Assembly (NCBI GenBank): GCA_964036295.1
Contig: OZ038462.1
Location: forward strand, 8,687,767-8,751,766
Reading direction: 5' to 3'
Source of the DNA: Plumapathes pennacea
Taxonomy: Eukaryota; Cnidaria; Anthozoa; Antipatharia; Myriopathidae
DNA: 64,000 bases
The position numbers and the translations under genes were made by a program. Below the pieces are notes generated by a model. That model searched no databases and had not been told where the DNA came from. It saw nothing but the letters and a program-made list of their open reading frames with translations. Of this stretch, positions 45,004-59,500 are shown piece by piece. The stretch's first letter is position 1. Each line of letters opens with the position of its first letter.

Positions 45004-45560
45004 CTATAACAGGTTTGACTGGTCGCTTTCACTGTTAATCCTATTGAGTTCAGCCCGGCCAGGGTCTCCCAATAGTTTCAACATAGACTTGTAGGCAGAT
45101 CTGGGCAAAAAACGACAGAATTTAGAAAGAAGGACAGAGAAATAACAGAAATTAAAGAGAACAGAAGAAAGGAGAAAGGAATAAATGATGTTGCTCAAAT
45201 GTTGCAGAAGGTGGTTCGATGAGACATGATGTTGTGCACATTTAAACAGATTTTCGGCAAGTCTAGAACAAGCCATGGCTCCAGATTGAATTGCTTCAAG
45301 AGACTGAAGTTGCGACTATCGATTACCAAAGAACGTAGTCATGACGACGACCTACGTCAAGCTGCGTAACCTCCCTCCTGCTATCTACTTCACGCACTAT
45401 GTGGGGTGGTACCGCCCTGTTCATACCTGAGTTGCGTGTCGGCGCCAACACCTCTCTTCTGTTCGCTTTGCATGATGGCCTGCCTAGCTGCGGGGATCAG
45501 TGAACACAGCAGCTCTGCGTCAAACACGGCCAGGGTCTCAAATGTTTTGAACACCAGACC

Positions 45561-48600: not shown

Positions 48601-50484
48601 GAAAACTCTTGAAGGAGTATCATAAGGACTCTAGAACCAGGGTAGGCCACCCCCAATCACTCCCCAGAAAAAGAAAACTTACAAAGTTTCATTTCAAAAT
48701 TCTGGTTCAGGAGAAATGTGTAGGAATACTAATAACTTCGGAATTTTACCAGGTGTATATGAAAGGGTCACTGTTTTTTACCTTAGGATCGCGTTTAAAT
48801 GAAACCCTTGTGGGAAATTTTGAGTACCCTTACCCCCGGGGGACACAAATTGTCTCAAATTTCTCACCTCGTGTTCATCTCCGGTGTGTTTCGGCAGGCT
48901 CCGAGCATCATTCGTAGAATTTCCATGGCTGGTAGGAAAAATCGTAGTTTTATCGTTAGCAACCGACTAAACTGATTAGTCACATAGGGCGATCTTTTTA
49001 ACAAAGTTTGGACCGCGGTAAAGAAAGTCCTGATCTAAACAAGGTCCAAACAGTACGTACCACGGCGGTAACGTGGTATTTATAGACCGACGTCGATCCA
49101 TGTTCTAAAAATACAATTGATCCTTTGGCAAACCCTGGTTTACAGACTCTGCCTGACTTTCAATTTAGCGATAAACCAGGTCTAAGTTAAGTTTTGTTTA
49201 AAATATCGGCCCATAAGGTTTGAACCTCTATTTTGTGAAATGTTCAGTATATCGCTTACCAGGCTTTCTGATGTTCGCGGGCTCGTTTTCTGGAGCGTAC
49301 GTGTTGCATGCGATGAGACAGCCAATCACCGGCTTCAACAGAACAGGCGTGTTCCTAGAAAATAGAGCAAACCGAGGCAAGATGTGTTTTGGAAAAAGGA
49401 AAACTAGGGAAGCGTAATCCAAGAAACGAAAAACTCAGGCAAGATCTGCGTATTCCTGGAAAACAGGATAACCCTAGAGCACTACAGGATGCGTATTTCA
49501 AGAAATCCGAAGGATATGTATTCCTGGAAACGGACAAACTAAAGCCTAAAAAATGCGTGTTTCAGGAAAAGAAAGACACAAGCTTCTAAAAAAAAAAACA
49601 AAAAACAAAAAACAAAACAAAGAAACGCCATAAAAAAAGTGGCGAGTTACTGGAAAAAAGGCGAGAAGCGTGTTCTTAGAAAACCGAAAACTCTGGGACA
49701 AGTGCAGACGCTCAGACGCTCCTCACCTGGCTAATTCTTTTTGAGATGATGTTTTCTTAAACAGCTGTTCTATAAAATACAGGGTCTGTTGAGAAAACAT
49801 GAAACATTATTGGGGCTATTCCAACATACCAGGGTTCCCACTCATCAGGAAACAGCTCTGATTTTCCCTGACCTTTCACTGGCCAAAAGGATTGAAAACG
49901 ATGACTATCCATTTCATTTTCTCTTCTGATTCTGTCCATTTCTGCACACTTTGCCTGGGATTTCGATCGCAGTGCATTTGACTGCATTATTTTTAATGGT
50001 AACTTTTCGTGGTAATTGCAATACTCATATTCTTGCCAAAAACAAAATCCTTTAGCCCCTTTAGAAACCTGAATTAAAATCTCCTGGATTCAGCAGAAGT
50101 TTAGAAATTCCCTGACTTGAACAAAAAAATGACCTCGAAACCCTGGGACCCTGATACAGTGCACACCATGAAATGCCGGTTATTAGCCTTGGATTTGTGA
50201 GGCTTCAAACCGCGTATAACCGCAATTTTTCGGAGCCAGACTTTCTTGGTCTTACCGGTGTGATTTTCGGCGGAGGCTGGGGGAAAGTTAGATGCGAGTC
50301 GCGTATAATTTCCAATACAAACTGACGGAAGTCACTAAAAAACAAAAGATTGACTTCATGAGATAATGATAATGATAATAATAATAACAGCAAAACGGCG
50401 TTTGTTTAGTTTTTGAGTTATGGTCTTGTGATTGGTACTGTAATTTTCTGGATCTAGCTTTACTACTGTCAATCAAAAAACTGC

Positions 50485-50521
<37 letters not shown>

Positions 50522-53500
50522 GCAATGTATGTGTACCTGGCTTCTGGAGAGGGGTCCGTCGTAAGTGAATCGTTCAAAACGATCTGGATGAAGATAGAAT
50601 ATACAACCAAGTCATAAGGCAGGAGAGAAGGGGAGGGGAGGGGAGGGCGGGGGGAGGGGGAAGGGTGTTGATTCTTTAACTGCTAAACATGAATCTGACT
50701 CAAGCTAGAAAATACTTCCAACTTCTGAAGTGTCAAATAAGACATTAAGGTGATGAACGTTGTTATTTACCAGGAATGGGTTTTTGGGCGACGCAGTGCA
50801 GGATTGTGCCGCGGCTTGACATTCCTGAAAAAATGAAAATGAACCAAAGTCTTTAATAACATCAACTTTTGCGAAGATTTTATAGCTGTGTCGTGTCAGT
50901 TTTTAACTATTGGCAACTGACTCTTGGCCGACACAGCTGTGAAACGACTTATCTTTTGTGAATTATTGATTGGCAATCGCTTGAGACAGCTGGGTCGTGA
51001 CGTCATCACTAAAGTGACGTCATCACTATCACGGTTTGTTCCGACGGAAGGCTCGACACGTCAGCTTACACCAGTTTCACGGACTTAACCCTTTCACTCC
51101 CAAAAGTGACCAACTTCTATTTTCTCCTTCAGTTTCTCACCAGAAATATATCATACAGAAAGGAGAACTTGGCTTTTTGTGCCTTTTTCAGATGAAAACT
51201 GATTAAATCAACAATTCTCACTACATCGCTCATACAGTTCCTCCTTAAAAGGTTGGAGAATCTGCATTTTGAGCTTGGGAGTGAGAAGGTTAAGCTTCTC
51301 CACATTAACCTTAGATTGACACGTTATACGTTTTATCGCTGAGCATTTTGCATGCCACTGTATCCCTTAGCGAGCAAACTAGCCTTAGTACCCACCCCTC
51401 CCCCTTTTCTCCTCCCGCACAGCTCACCTGGTTGAAGGCGTGAAAATAACAGCTGAACACTTGCCGAATTTTGCGCCGAACAAAATCATCTCTCTTGAAG
51501 TCGAGGTTCGCAAGGCCCTGAAGAAACTGTGAAGATGCAACAAAAGGCAATACACAGTCAATCACAATCCAACACGACTGAGAAAACGAGATCAGCTTGT
51601 CAGGGCTTTGAAATATTTCTCTACTAGCCAAGGTAGGTAAAACAAGTATGGTAAGTAATAAGAATATTCACTGTTTCCTCGTTTTCATGTTGCAAAAATT
51701 TAAGTGTGGAGACCCCTGTGAGTAGTTCTTTTAATATGGGGAACACAAGAAGTGAAACACAAGAAATAACAGCACACAGGTAACAAGATAAGTCAAGTAT
51801 TCTTTTATTTTTACATTTTCAACTCAAACCCCAGATTGGGGAGCCTGTGGCCAACGGAGCAACGCTTCCAAGAGAGGTGTGCAAAATAAGCGAGAGTTAG
51901 TAAGCGCCACCATGTGCTTTTACGAAGCACATTTACAAAATTAGCACAAACGATAAAACTATGAACCAAAAAATTATAAAGCATATCGATATCAACGATC
52001 GAAACATGGTTTCTTGTCTGCTCCAAGTTTCGCGATGTTCGTTTGGTCCGGGACTGCTTGGCGGAATAACAATGAGTTGGACGTCGTCGCTTGAGGCACA
52101 GCAGGAATCTATTGAATTCAACAATCCTGTAGCTGGAATCTGGTCGCTGGCGAAGCAAGAAAAGAAGAAATAGAGTTAAATACAGGTGTGCGACTTTTGG
52201 AATATGAAATGAGTTAATACTTACATGGCTCCAGGCCAATCAAGTGTAGAAGTCCCGCTAATCCCACAACATGAAGGTACTTCAATACTTCTTGCCCGCT
52301 CTATCGGGGCCGTCGCATGTTCATCTACATTCATGCACACGCATGCAGCGAAGCAGCGGTTTCTTTCAATCATCGCCCCTCTGGAATGGCCCCGAAATGA
52401 ATTCGCCGCCCTTATATAGTGTTTTGCGAGTCAAACCAGTTTGAAACTAGTTTAACATCCCACGTGGGGTGCAAAGCGCGCGAAAAAGAAACGTGTCCAA
52501 TTGTGATTGGTTGTTGTGTGAATGGCTGATGCAATCGTTTGTGATTCGTTTTTCCGAGAGTAAGGAAAAATCCCGGGTACTGGGAAAATGTAACCAGTTT
52601 AAGCCAGTTTAACATCCCATGTGGGGTGAAAAGCGCGCGAAAAAGAGACGTCCAATTGTGATTGGTTGTTGTGTGAATGGCTGATGCAATCGTTTGTGAT
52701 TCGTTTTTCCGAGAGTAAGGAAAAATCCCGGGTACTGGGGAAAATGTAACCAGTTTAAGCCAGTTTAACATCCCACGTGGGGTGAAAAGTGCGCGAAAAA
52801 GAAACGTGTCCAATTGTGATTGGTTGTTGTGTGAATGGCTGATGCAATCGTTTGTGATTCGTTTTTCCGAGAGTAAGGAAAAATCCCGGGTACTGGGAAA
52901 ATGTAACCAGTTTAAGCCAGTTTAACATCCCACGTGGGGTGAAAAGCGCGCGAAAAAGAGACGTCCAATTGTGATTGGTTGTTGTGTGAATGGCTGATGC
53001 AATCGTTTGTGATTCGTTTTTCCGAGAGTAAGGAAAAATCCCGGGTACTGGGGAAAATGTAACCAGTTTAAGCCAGTTTAACATCCCACGTGGGGTGAAA
53101 AGCGCGCGAAAAAGAGACGTGTCCAATTGTGATTGGTTGTTGTGTGAATGGCTGATGCAATCGTTTGTAATTCGTTTTTCCGAGAGTAAGGAAAAATCCC
53201 GGGTACTGGGAAAATGTAACCAGTTTAAGCCAGTTTAACATCCCACGTGGGGTGAAAAGCGCGCGAAAAAGAGACGTCCAATTGTGATTGGTTGTTGTGT
53301 GAATGGCTGATGCAATCGTTTGTGATTTATTTTCCCGAGAGTAAGGAAAAATCCCGGGTACTAGGAAAATGTACTTTTACGGAATACGCCAATATTTACT
53401 GGAGGATAGTGTTTTTACGGACGCCGAAGCAAAACGCACTGTGCATGCGCGGCCGAACAACTTCCCGCTAAAATGTGCGACTGGGCATCCCACTCAAAGC

Positions 53501-56500
53501 CTTTGTTATTATCTAAAGTTAAACTTCCGTTGGGGTTTTTACTTAAGGACCAAAAACTCACAATCTGTAGTTTATTAGTAGTGGTAATCATTGGTGCGCG
53601 ACTTTAATTAACAATGAATAGTGGGAATAATGTTTGAAAACTCAAACTAAATAGCACGAGTGGGCAGGAAGTGTTATTTGTGGAACTTTCAAACATTACG
53701 AGCACTATTAATCGTTAATTGAATGAGAACACCAATGTTTATTGGTGAATTATACACAAGGTGAAGGAAGCCATTCCAAAGCAAAACCAACAGTCAATCA
53801 ATGTCAAACGCGCGACTTTTTATTGGATGCTGAACTAACTTCACACCGTGGAAATTTGCATAATGCAAAACTCAAGTCAACGAGGATCACTGTCTTGAAT
53901 AGCCTTCAATGAAAGACTGAGTTTACCCAGAGCTTTGCTATGGAACACGTTATGGATGAAGGTCACCGAACAGCGAAACCATAACGGCATAACTGGCTGC
54001 CGACAATTACCAAAGGGAAGAGAAATCCGGGTTACGGCAAGTCTATACAGTTTATACTTAGCGAAGATTAGAAAATGTTGAAAGTGTTGATGTTCAGTGA
54101 AAAAATTGCTTTCGTATCGTGAAACCTTCTACCCTGCGAGCAGAACCTCCTTCATAAAGTTCTGCAGAGACGCTCGGCATACTTACGAACAGGCGAGCGG
54201 CTACACTTTCACAAAGAAGCCCTTTAGTAGAAGAAACTGGATCGAAACTGGAAAAATCAACTTTGGAGGTTTTAACACTGATCACGACCTGTCGATGATC
54301 TCTTGAAATTTCAGACTCTTCCCGCTGCGGATGGCTTGGCACTTTGCTGATCTCCAAACATTAGTTGATTTCGGGCTCGTATATTTCCACTTTAATTTAA
54401 CGTTTCCGCTCCTCCCCGAATTTCTTACAGCATTTTCAGCACTCAGAGTCGATTTCCTGCGTTTGAATTCTCCAAATTAAACTCTACGGCTGTTTTGTTT
54501 ATGTTTTGGGAATCTCTCGCTCTTGGCCATCATTTTTTCTCGATGCAAAAGTGAAGCTTGCGACTTGCTTGCGTGATACCAAGTGTGCGATCAGAATTTA
54601 GTATTTTTGCATCTATATTAATATTTTTAATCTTTTAGCCTTGGATTTGTGAGGCTTCAAACCGCGTATAACCGCAATTTTTCGGAGCCAGACTTTCTTG
54701 GTCTTACCGGTGTGAGTTTCGGCGGAGGCTGGGGGAAAGTTAGATGCGAGTCGCGTATAATTTCCAATACAAACTGACGGAAGTCACTAAAAAACAAAAG
54801 ATTGACTTCATGAGATAATGATAATGATAATAATAATAACAGCAAAACGGCGTTTGTTTAGTTTTTGAGTTATGGTCTTGTGATTGGTAATGTAATTTTC
54901 TGGATCTAGCTTTACGATTGTCAATAACCGCTGGGGACCCCTGTGAGTAGTTCTTTTACTATTGGGAACACAAGAAGTGAAACACAAGAAATAACAGCAC
55001 ACAGGTAACAAGATAAGTCAAGTATTCTTTTATTTTTACATTTTCAACTCAAACCCCAGATTGGGGAGCCTGTGGCCAACGGAGCAACGCTTCCAAGAGA
55101 GGTGTGCAAAATAAGCGAGAGTTAGTAAGCGCCACCATGTGCTTTTACGAAGCACATTTACAAAATTAGCACAAACGATAAAACTATGAACCAAAAAATT
55201 ATAAAGCATATCGATATCAACGATCGAAACAGGGTTTCTTGTCTGCTCCTAGTTTCGCGATGTTCGTTTGGTCCGGGACTGCTTGGCGGAATAACAATGA
55301 GTTGGACGTCGTCGCTTGAGGCACAGCAGGAATCGATTGAATTCAACAATCCTGTAGCTGGAATCTGGTCGCTGGCGAAGCAAGAGAAGAAGAAATAGAG
55401 TTAAATACAGGTGTGCAACTTTTGGAATATGAAATGAGTTAATACTTACATGGCTCCCTGCCAATCAAGTGTAGAAGTTCCGCTAATCCCACAACATGAA
55501 GGTACTCCAATACTTCTTGCCCGCTCTATCGGGGCCGTCGCATGTTCATCTACATTCATGCACACGCATGCAGCGAAGCAGCGGATGTTTTCGCTCATCG
55601 CCCCTCTGGAATGGCCCCGAAATGAATTCGCCGCCCTTATATAGTGTTTTGCGAGTCAAACCAGTTTGAAACCAGTTTAACATCCCACGTGGGGTGAAAA
55701 GCGCGCGAAAAAGAGACGTGTCCAAATGTGATTGGTTGTTGTATGAATGGCTGATGCAATCGTTTGTGATTCGTTTTTCCGAGAGTAAGGAAAAATCCCG
55801 GGTACTGGGAAAATGTAACCAGTTTAAGCCAGTTTAACATCCCACGTGGGGTGAAAAGCGCGCGAAAAAGAGACGTGTCCAATTGTGATTGGTTGTTGTG
55901 TGAATGGCTGATGCAATCGTTTGTGATTCGTTTTCCCGAGAGTAAGGAAAAATCCCGGGTACTGGGAAAATGTACTTTTACGGAATACGCCAATATTTAC
56001 TGGAGGATAGTGTTTTTACGGACGCCGAAGCAAAACGCACTGTGCATGCGCGGCCGAACAACTTCCCGCTAAAATGTGCGACTGGGCATCCCACTCAAAG
56101 CCTTTGTTATTATCTAAAGTTAAACTTCCGTTGGGGTTTTTACTTAAGGACCAAAAACTCACAATTTGTAGTTTATTAGTAGTGGTAATCATTGGTGTGC
56201 GACTTTAATTAACAATGAATAGTGGGAATAATGTTTGAAAACTCAAACTAAATAGCACGAGTGGGCAGGAAGTGTTTTTTGTGGAACTTTCAAACATTAC
56301 GAGCACTATTAATCGTTAATTGAATGAGAACACCAATGTTTATTGGTGAATTATACACAAGGTGAAGGAAGCCATTCCAAAGCAAAACCAACAGTCAATC
56401 AATGTCAAACGCGCGACTTTTTATTGGATGCTGAACTAACTTCACACCGTGGAAATTTGCATAATGCAAAACTCAAGTCAACGAGGATCACTGTCTTGAA

Positions 56501-59500
56501 TAGCCTTCAATGAAAGACTGAGTTTACCCAGAGCTTTGCTATGGAACACGTTATGGATGAAGGTCACCGAACAGCGAAACCATAACGGCATAACTGGCTG
56601 CCGACAATTACCAAAGGGAAGAGAAATCCGGGTTACGGCAAGTCTATACAGTTTATACTTAGCGAAGATTAGAAAATGTTGAAAGTGCTGATGTTCAGTG
56701 AAAAAATTGCTTTCGTATCGTGAAACCTTCTACCCTGCGAGCAGAACCTCCTTCATAAAGTTCTGCAGAGACGCTCGGCATACTTACGAACAGGCGAGCG
56801 GCTATACTTTCACAAAGAAGCCCTTTAGTAGAAGAAACTGGATCGAAACTGGAAAAATCAACTTTGGAGGTTTTAACACTGATCACGACCTGTCGATGAT
56901 CTCTTGAAATTTCAGACTCTTCCCGCTGCGGATGGCTTGGCACTTTGCTGATCTCCGAACATTAGTTGATTTCGGGCTCGTATATTTCCACTTTAATTTA
57001 ACATTTCCGCTCCTCCGCGAATTTCTTACAGGCATTTTCAGCATTTACGTCCATGTTTTAGAGTCAATTTCCTGCGTTTGAATTCTCCAAATTAAACTCT
57101 ACGGCTGTTTTGTTTATGTTTTGGGAATCTCTCGCTCTTGGCCATCATTTTTTCTCGATGCAAAAGTGAAGCTTGCGACTTGCTTGCGTGATACCAAGTG
57201 TGCGATCAGAATTTAGTATTTTTGCATCTATATTAATATTTTTAAATCTCTGACCTTTTGCACCACCTACTTTGGTGCTTGCACCAAACACAACGCTCTC
57301 TTCCTTTCATCTTCTCTTGTTTGAACATTTGATGACTTCATTTCTTTGTGAGTGATGACTGCATAGGATTGTGGGTCATAAGACCTGTTGCCCTTACCTG
57401 GTGCAGGTAGCGTTTGGAGCACTGCGCAGCCGCGGGAGCCACCGGTTTTTTGCTGTTGGGCAGCGGCAAGATAAGCCTGTCCAGCAGGCGAGGCAACAAG
57501 CAGTGTGGCTGAGTCTAAATACAAACAAACAAATAAACAAGTAAGAAATTACACAAGCAAAAAAACAAATAAACAAATACTGTAAATGAAAAACAAACAA
57601 ATTCATTAAATACAAACAAACAAACAAGTAAGCAAAAGCTCTTGGATACAAAGACTTAGGCCCGGGTCAAACGTCGATCTCAGCAAGCGTCGAACTGAAT
57701 TCAACAATTAAGCGCATTGTAAGTTCGACGTTTGTCCCAAGTAAGATCGATTGATTGAGTTTGATCGACTCAGTCGATCTGAGGCCCGGGTTAAACGTCG
57801 ATCTTAGCATGCGTCGAACTTAATGCAAATTAGCTCCAACAATGGATTTTGTTCATTTGCATTGAGTTCGACGCATGGTAAGGCCGACGTTTAACCCGGA
57901 CCGTATTCACATTGTTGAGAATCCTATGTCCATTTTAGCATGATAAAGATGTGACGAGATCGCCAATATACCAACCTTGCTGTAGATGAGTCTGTAACAA
58001 TGCTTCATCAGAGCACCGGCTGTGTGATACACCAACCTGATAAACAACAACAAGTACGATACAAACGAAGAGAAAAAACAAAACATGAAAAGAAGCAACA
58101 AAGCACAGAAAAACCCAACATAGAAGAATACCTCACAATACAACAAGACTCAGTACATAGTATTGTACAACACAGCGCGAACACAGTACTGCACAACAGA
58201 ACAATTGCAGTACATTAAATAACAATACATTTCGTTTGCTGAGTCCGTGCTGTATGTGTCCGTGTTGTATGAGTCCGTGCTGTATGTGTCCGTGCTGTAT
58301 GTGTCCGTGCTGTATGTGTCCGTGCTGTATGAGTCCGTGCTGTATGTGTCCGTGCTGTATGTGTCCGTGCTGTATGAGTCCGTGCTGTATGTGTCCGTGC
58401 TGTATGTGTCCGTGCTGTATGTGTCCGTGCTGTATGTGTCCGTGCTGTATGAGTCCGTGCTGTATGTGTCCGTGCTGTATGTGTCCGTGCTGTATGTGTC
58501 CGTGCTGTATGTGTCCGTGCTGTATGTGTCCGTGCTGTATGTGTCCGTGCTGTATGTGCCCGTGCTGTATGTGTCCGTGCTGTATGAGTCCGTGCTGTAT
58601 GTGTCCGTGCTGTATGTGTCCGTGCTGTATGTGCCCGTGCTGTATGTATCCGTGCTGTATGAGTCCGTGCTGTATGTGTCCGTGCTGTATGAGTCCGTGC
58701 TGTATGTGTCCGTGCTGTATGTGTCCGTGCTGTATGTGTCCGTGCTGTATGTGTCCGTGCTGTATGAGTCCGTGCTGTATGTGTCCGTGCAGGTTAGGAG
58801 AATCAGGACCGAGAGGCAATTCTCCATTCTCCAATCTCCATTATCTTAAAACTATTTTCGTTTTAGTCCCTCAGTAAGAACTTTGTAGTTGATAGCTTGC
58901 TGAAATAAAACCTGATTGATATCAAAATTCTCATTCCATCACTCACACATTTCGTATTTTATGGTTGGGAGAATTTGTATTTTGAGCTTGTGAGTGAAAG
59001 GGTTAGTAAATACTTGTAGAGCACAGAGCAGCACAGTGGAACACAACTCATCACAATACAATACACAACACAGCGTATCACAATACAGTACATTGTCACA
59101 GCACAGCACAGCACAGCACAGTTAACAATTATTCGCCGAAGTGGAGGTGAATAGCGGTGGATATTTACCGAGCCGTTTCGGCGAGGTAAATATCCACCGC
59201 TATTCACCGACACTGAGGCGAATAATTGTTTTAGCATATACCACACAAGTTTAATAGCCAACTCCCAAATAGCTATTTTATTTCCGACAAAAGTTGGCAA
59301 AAATTGGGTTCGCGCGCCATTTTGTTTTACCGGAAGCAGCCGGGAGGTGAATAGTACTTGATATTCCGAGATTGAGGAGCCAATCAGAGCGCGCGAAAAG
59401 CACTATTCACTTGTGTGTTATATACCAAAACATAATATCACATTACAGTATAGCACAGGGAGTCCCAATGCAGTGCAGCAAAAAGCAGCACAGTGATATT

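Follow-up and report, generated by a model that had tools for sequence, protein, structure and literature searches.

Tandem copies of a candidate nested gene with a putative tail-anchored product in an MMS22L intron of Plumapathes pennacea

Tail-anchored proteins such as phospholamban and the small regulins have one C-terminal helix and almost nothing after it. Recent tandem duplicates (PMC10236652) and orphan small membrane proteins (PMC7005711) have each been described before, and for orphan or de novo genes encoding small membrane proteins a 'TM-first' model has been put forward in yeast, with fitness data (Vakirlis 2020, PMC7005711). Here we describe a locus of the antipatharian Plumapathes pennacea that may combine these features. 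Our reading, to which we give a probability of about one half, is that it holds a young, lineage-restricted nested gene with a putative tail-anchored product, lying in host orientation in an intron of MMS22L and recently duplicated as part of a unit of ∼4.4 kb.

Anatomy of the copies and their setting in MMS22L

Two near-identical candidate gene models (copies A and B) were read from the minus strand of the window, i.e. the whole stretch of 64,000 nucleotides of contig OZ038462.1 that was analysed, with equal spacing of their parts. An initial annotation had proposed two complete-looking copies, each with a TATA box, an ATG, a 78-bp GT/AG intron, a stop codon and an AATAAA signal, and we could locate all of these parts, at the same spacing, in both. 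The common layout is a TATA box (TATATAAG), an Inr-like CCATTCC (its A 31 bp past the TATA box), an ATG 14 bp beyond this A, a first coding part of 149 bp, a 78-bp intron that splits the same codon in both copies (borders AT/GTAAGT...CGCCAG/C), a second coding part of 214 bp including the TAA, and AATAAA ∼123 bp past the stop, followed by a GT-rich stretch. The parts and the flanking MMS22L exons are as follows (window positions).

52411-52418, minus strand: copy A TATA box, TATATAAG (motif reading)
52387, minus strand: A of the copy A Inr-like CCATTCC (motif reading)
52225-52373, minus strand: copy A exon 1 coding part, ATG at 52373 (sequence reading)
52147-52224, minus strand: copy A 78-bp intron, GTAAGT...CGCCAG (sequence reading)
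51933-52146, minus strand: copy A exon 2 coding part, stop TAA at 51935-51933, hydrophobic tail (frame, hydropathy, predicted helix)
51804-51809, minus strand: copy A AATAAA, then a GT-rich stretch (motif reading)
55636-55643, minus strand: copy B TATA box, Inr A at 55612 (motif reading)
55450-55598, minus strand: copy B exon 1 coding part, ATG at 55598 (sequence reading)
55372-55449, minus strand: copy B 78-bp intron (sequence reading)
55158-55371, minus strand: copy B exon 2 coding part, stop TAA at 55160-55158 (frame reading)
55029-55034, minus strand: copy B AATAAA (motif reading)
57398-57514, minus strand: MMS22L exon on the 5' side of the host intron (Pfam PF14911 positions 109-147, E 0.12 alone)
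51428-51526, minus strand: MMS22L exon on the 3' side of the host intron (PF14911 positions 149-179, E 0.03 alone)

On the opposite strand a 70-aa frame is also open in both copies, with Fickett scores (0.92 and 0.96) above those of the sense frames; a search for relatives of this antisense frame, a possible alternative to the sense frame, found none.

The flanking exons match consecutive positions of PF14911, the MMS22L C-terminal model, which places both copies in one MMS22L intron, in the orientation of the host, as had been proposed. The start of the exon at 51428-51526 could also lie elsewhere, up to 51623. The joined peptide of the candidate exons, these two included, matched PF14911 with E 4.5e-22, and the model also matched a minus-strand exon at 45426-45557 (E 1.4e-5). 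The MMS22L N-terminal model gave six minus-strand matches from 62414 outward, the best of which (E 1.5e-4, above the cut-off) is located outside the window, while those in the window or at its edge are weak (E 0.01-0.16). Judged by titles and the beginnings of abstracts, the papers listed for MMS22L and coral held no treatment of MMS22L in corals, and among those listed in a further search none bore on the present locus.

Both copies lie within larger repeated units, as follows (no strand assigned).

50183-54630: tandem duplication unit 1, carrying copy A and the MMS22L exon (window self-BLAST, junction reading)
54635-57245: tandem duplication unit 2, carrying copy B (window self-BLAST, junction reading)
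52434-53373: about six tandem 157-bp units directly upstream of the copy A TATA box (repeat analysis)
55659-55974: two tandem 157-bp units directly upstream of the copy B TATA box (repeat analysis)
53572-54562: ∼1-kb interspersed repeat with inverted ends of ∼170 bp and an equivalent in unit 2 (genome search)

Judged from their adjacency, their common orientation and a high identity that extends beyond the gene, copies A and B can be classed as a recent tandem duplicate. The duplicated unit measures ∼4.4 kb and the two units abut within 4 bp, with clean junctions. Self-BLAST aligned them at 97.4-98.6% identity over blocks of 1587, 1044 and 291 bp, and differences in the aligned blocks number 4/291, 17/734 and 11/1257 bases, i.e. 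a divergence of 0.9-2.3%. Unit 2 has no equivalent of 50474-51706 (1.2 kb), six other bases standing in its place; as this segment holds the MMS22L exon at 51428-51526, it is presumably ancestral and would have been deleted from unit 2. The ∼1-kb interspersed repeat is present in both units and therefore predates the duplication. A genome search for it gave 377 first-look candidates, and the 40 that were scored were all long matches (∼760-1275 bp), two of them at the present locus and 38 elsewhere at 80-83% identity.

By the genome search used, the 157-bp array was found at no site besides copies A and B. Seven of its eight units contain inverted CCAAT pairs, seven contain CCACGTGG and two contain an ISRE-like GAAANNGAAA. 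The repeats thus hold sites of the CCAAT and CACGTG types; the ISRE-like motif is not distinctive, because it has 37 matches in 200 kb of background.

We also considered the copies as a mobile element and as an RNA gene. The former was rejected because the gene DNA and the 157-bp array were found only at the two copies and, for an LTR pair in particular, because nothing that could be an internal region separates the two abutting units; the interspersed elements that the units contain are separate. The latter was rejected because a search with Rfam over 49000-58500 left 50546-57786 free of matches up to E 0.5. The top Rfam match was that of a miRNA model to an inverted repeat at 57787-57898 (E 8e-10, 59 bits against a gathering score of 130).

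The predicted product and the search for relatives

The conceptual product of either copy has 120 residues and ends in a hydrophobic helix. As a tail anchor we counted a single hydrophobic helix within ∼30 residues of the C-terminus with none earlier. In copy A, residues 101-119 have a mean Kyte-Doolittle value of 3.05, and no 19-residue stretch starting before residue 90 exceeds 1.6. AlphaFold, applied to the 69 residues of exon 2 only, predicted a confident C-terminal helix, with pLDDT ∼96 over the last 19 residues and 53-69 before them. Hydropathy and predicted helix agree with the earlier description of a 120-residue product with a single hydrophobic segment at its C-terminus, and by its sequence the conceptual protein is predicted to be tail-anchored. 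Tails of this hydropathy are rare, values of at least 3.0 being found at the end of 2 of 2469 background frames and values of at least 2.0 at the end of 35.

Searching the genome with the gene DNA gave no further copy besides A and B; two weak matches that were considered as paralogues (E 0.16 and 4.6), each with stops, were taken as chance. No Pfam family matched the product above its cut-off, and weaker matches at E 0.04-0.07 (hepadnavirus surface antigen, lipid-transfer) were discounted, as they lie far below their cut-offs. The copy A product had no sequence match in the PDB at E up to 10, and 5.8 billion predicted proteins contained no relative. Among viral contigs, searched with the exon 2 part only, 13 stretches matched a pattern and none encoded a relative. 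The suggestion that the product belongs to no known family thus stood up in Pfam, the PDB and the predicted proteins, and we provisionally regard the candidate gene as an orphan, i.e. as apparently lineage-restricted.

Divergence, coding signal and chance expectation

The coding parts of A and B differ at 12 of 363 positions in nine codons, seven of them replaced (10 nt) and two silent (2 nt). The replaced codons (2, 4, 5, 31, 47, 91 and 97) all precede the hydrophobic segment (residues 98-120), and this direct count agrees with the roughly seven replacements and two silent changes, mostly outside the tail, that had been counted by eye. The further suggestion that this pattern is unusual and could mean fast divergence did not hold, as the silent count fits neutral drift and the changes are too few to reject neutrality. 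With Nei-Gojobori sites of S 80.2 and N 279.8 and pathway-averaged changes of 3.5 silent and 8.5 replacement, the ratio is 0.70 on 12 changes, which is indistinguishable from 1; ∼2.7 of 12 changes are expected to be silent under neutrality, and the direct codon count gave 2 and the pathway-averaged count 3.5. With copies this similar, neutrality, purifying selection and positive selection cannot be told apart, and the 12 changes gave no support for either kind of selection. Within the 734-bp block, coding (12/363) and non-coding (5/371) positions show no clear difference (Fisher P 0.09). Exon 1 is richer in changes (9/149 compared with 8/585 bp in the rest of the block, P 0.003). Five of these changes fall in a 10-bp stretch that directly follows the ATG and another two are adjacent to each other; being clustered, the changes are not independent and look like a few multi-base events.

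Coding statistics spoke against the gene model or were indecisive. Codon scores were -0.086 (A) and -0.066 (B), compared with medians of 0.065 for coding and -0.066 for background sequence, on a training set of 16 long frames of unproven identity. The score of copy A was equalled or exceeded by 60% of 575 background frames, and 1 of 57 coding windows was as low. The T-rich tail (-0.467) accounts for the deficit; the remainder of exon 2 (+0.033) and exon 1 (-0.029) fall between the background and coding medians. Fickett values of 0.76 (A) and 0.88 (B) are indecisive: 41% and 20% of 837 background frames, respectively, score at least as high. Neither coding statistics nor purifying selection marks either copy as protein-coding.

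We used a genome sample of 264 kb (the window and 20 sampled stretches of 10 kb) and simulated DNA to estimate how often such a model arises by chance, counting A and B as one event rather than two. The sample contains 260 TATA-plus-first-ATG models, among which only copies A and B reach 80 aa and the next reaches 74 aa. Length alone is little proof: under the same splice rules a frame of at least 120 aa opens at 2.4% of the 1696 ATGs sampled from these 264 kb, which include real exons. In 867 Mb of order-3 simulated DNA there were 1427 TATA models of at least 120 aa, 83 of them spliced. AATAAA followed within 300 bp in 300 of the models of this length; adding a hydrophobic C-terminus (mean at least 2.0) left 4 and adding an Inr left none, with criteria that were fixed after the feature had been seen and with TATA boxes sparser in the simulated (722456 in 867 Mb) than in the real DNA (328 in 0.264 Mb). 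In 4 Mb of order-1 simulated DNA, 3 of 697 TATA models reached 120 aa, none with AATAAA.

These numbers bear most directly on the explanation that the duplicated intronic DNA encodes nothing, i.e. that TATA box, splice sites, AATAAA and frame are coincidental and were copied by the duplication. The model would be expected only ∼0.0003 times per 64 kb, or ∼0.0005 times at the real TATA density and less often with the Inr, and the donor, acceptor, TATA, Inr and poly(A) signals are all strong and correctly ordered. We consider a chance frame rather unlikely. However, one or two models with TATA box, 120 aa, AATAAA and hydrophobic tail would be expected by chance in a 290-Mb genome (from the 4 in 867 Mb), and the two copies are a single event. 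The non-coding-like codon usage, the indecisive Fickett values, the neutral-like divergence and the failure to find homologues in predicted proteins, in viral contigs or elsewhere in the genome also speak for a chance frame.

Somewhat less probable still, though like the chance frame a serious alternative, is a real transcription unit, e.g. a long non-coding RNA or a regulator of MMS22L processing, in which the 120-aa frame is incidental. This would reconcile the good promoter, splice and poly(A) anatomy with the poor coding statistics, and the same-strand position in the MMS22L intron would permit transcriptional interference, but in both copies the first ATG past the predicted start site leads, through the splice, into the entire 120-aa frame, whereas the other 258 TATA-anchored models in the sample have at most 74 aa.

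A divergence of 0.9-2.3% is possible between alleles of an outbred invertebrate, and that of the units could thus be allelic. That two alleles were assembled in tandem, false duplication being a documented assembly error (PMC9516828 and PMC7203741), is nevertheless very improbable, as unit 2 lacks the MMS22L exon that a normal allele should have and no more than 4 bp separate the units, whose junctions are clean.

Proposed mechanism and comparison with known systems

If the locus is a young nested gene, as we favor, RNA polymerase II would initiate at the TATA/Inr pair, aided by the 157-bp repeats, and a pre-mRNA of ∼0.6 kb would lose the 78-bp intron and end past the AATAAA. The predicted product would be inserted post-translationally via its C-terminal helix, leaving the N-terminus in the cytosol. 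Of the two promoters, that of copy A, with its six upstream units, is predicted to be the stronger. After the duplication the spare MMS22L exon would have been deleted from unit 2, and the copies would have drifted nearly neutrally. The stretch encoding the tail is 54% T, and the T-rich tail and non-coding-like codon usage together suggest a recent origin from non-coding DNA of the kind envisaged in the 'TM-first' model. A much bolder version, which we regard as a long shot, is that a newborn family of tail-anchored microproteins has been caught just after its duplication, with repeat number (six versus two) and bursts of N-terminal replacement diverging the expression and function of its members; given the motifs in the repeats, induction under stress or in an immune response would then be conceivable.

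If expressed, the locus would be a small natural test case for the copying and divergence of a young membrane-protein gene: the near-identical copies lie within a DNA-repair gene, and their immediate upstream flanks differ mainly in how many enhancer-like repeats they contain. If not expressed, it would be a useful caution that a complete-looking model in both halves of a duplicate is one observation rather than two, and that a few replacements do not amount to evidence of selection.

The predicted product resembles phospholamban and the small regulins in having one C-terminal helix with almost no residues beyond it; it differs in that the copy A product had no PDB sequence match at E up to 10 and in that the part before the helix (exon 2 only) is predicted at low confidence. 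With the 'TM-first' orphan genes (PMC7005711) the locus shares a short frame for which no relatives were found, a T-rich hydrophobic segment and non-coding-like codons, although that work concerns yeast and includes fitness data whereas the present locus is known from sequence alone. It shares tandem copies with the recent duplicates of coral genomes (PMC10236652), and differs from them in that an exon of the host gene appears to have been copied along and then lost.

Repeat arrays upstream of the TATA boxes

The two near-identical candidate genes, copies A and B, each have a 157-bp repeat array directly upstream of the TATA box:

52434-53373, six units, upstream of copy A
55659-55974, two units, upstream of copy B

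Inverted CCAAT pairs were present in seven of the eight units, with none in 200 kb of background and three in the rest of the window. CCACGTGG was likewise found in 7/8 units (two occurrences in the 200 kb background, one in the rest of the window).

The MMS22L exon and the antisense frame

Self-comparison and the Pfam exon match revealed that the duplicated segment took in an MMS22L exon, and that unit 2, the duplicate unit carrying copy B, has no equivalent of 50474-51706; six filler bases stand in its place. This loss looks like an end-joining deletion. A repeat of ∼210 bp at 51082-51294 lies close to the exon, with 2446 first-look candidates genome-wide, 40 of which were scored.

A 70-aa antisense frame on the plus strand is open in both copies (51961-52173 in A, 55186-55398 in B), and in both its Fickett score is higher than that of the 120-aa sense frame. 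A search for relatives of this antisense frame found none.

Other repeats

A minisatellite at 58240-58790, built of 15-bp units, has several open frames, on both strands. An interspersed repeat was also present:

53572-54562, ∼1 kb, inverted ends of ∼170 bp

It had 377 candidate matches, of which 40 were scored; 38 of these were long matches located elsewhere and 80-83% identical. This repeat looks like a non-autonomous DNA transposon. The inverted repeat at 57783-57902 (48-nt arms) matched several miRNA models, all below their own gathering scores, and is probably a small inverted-repeat element.
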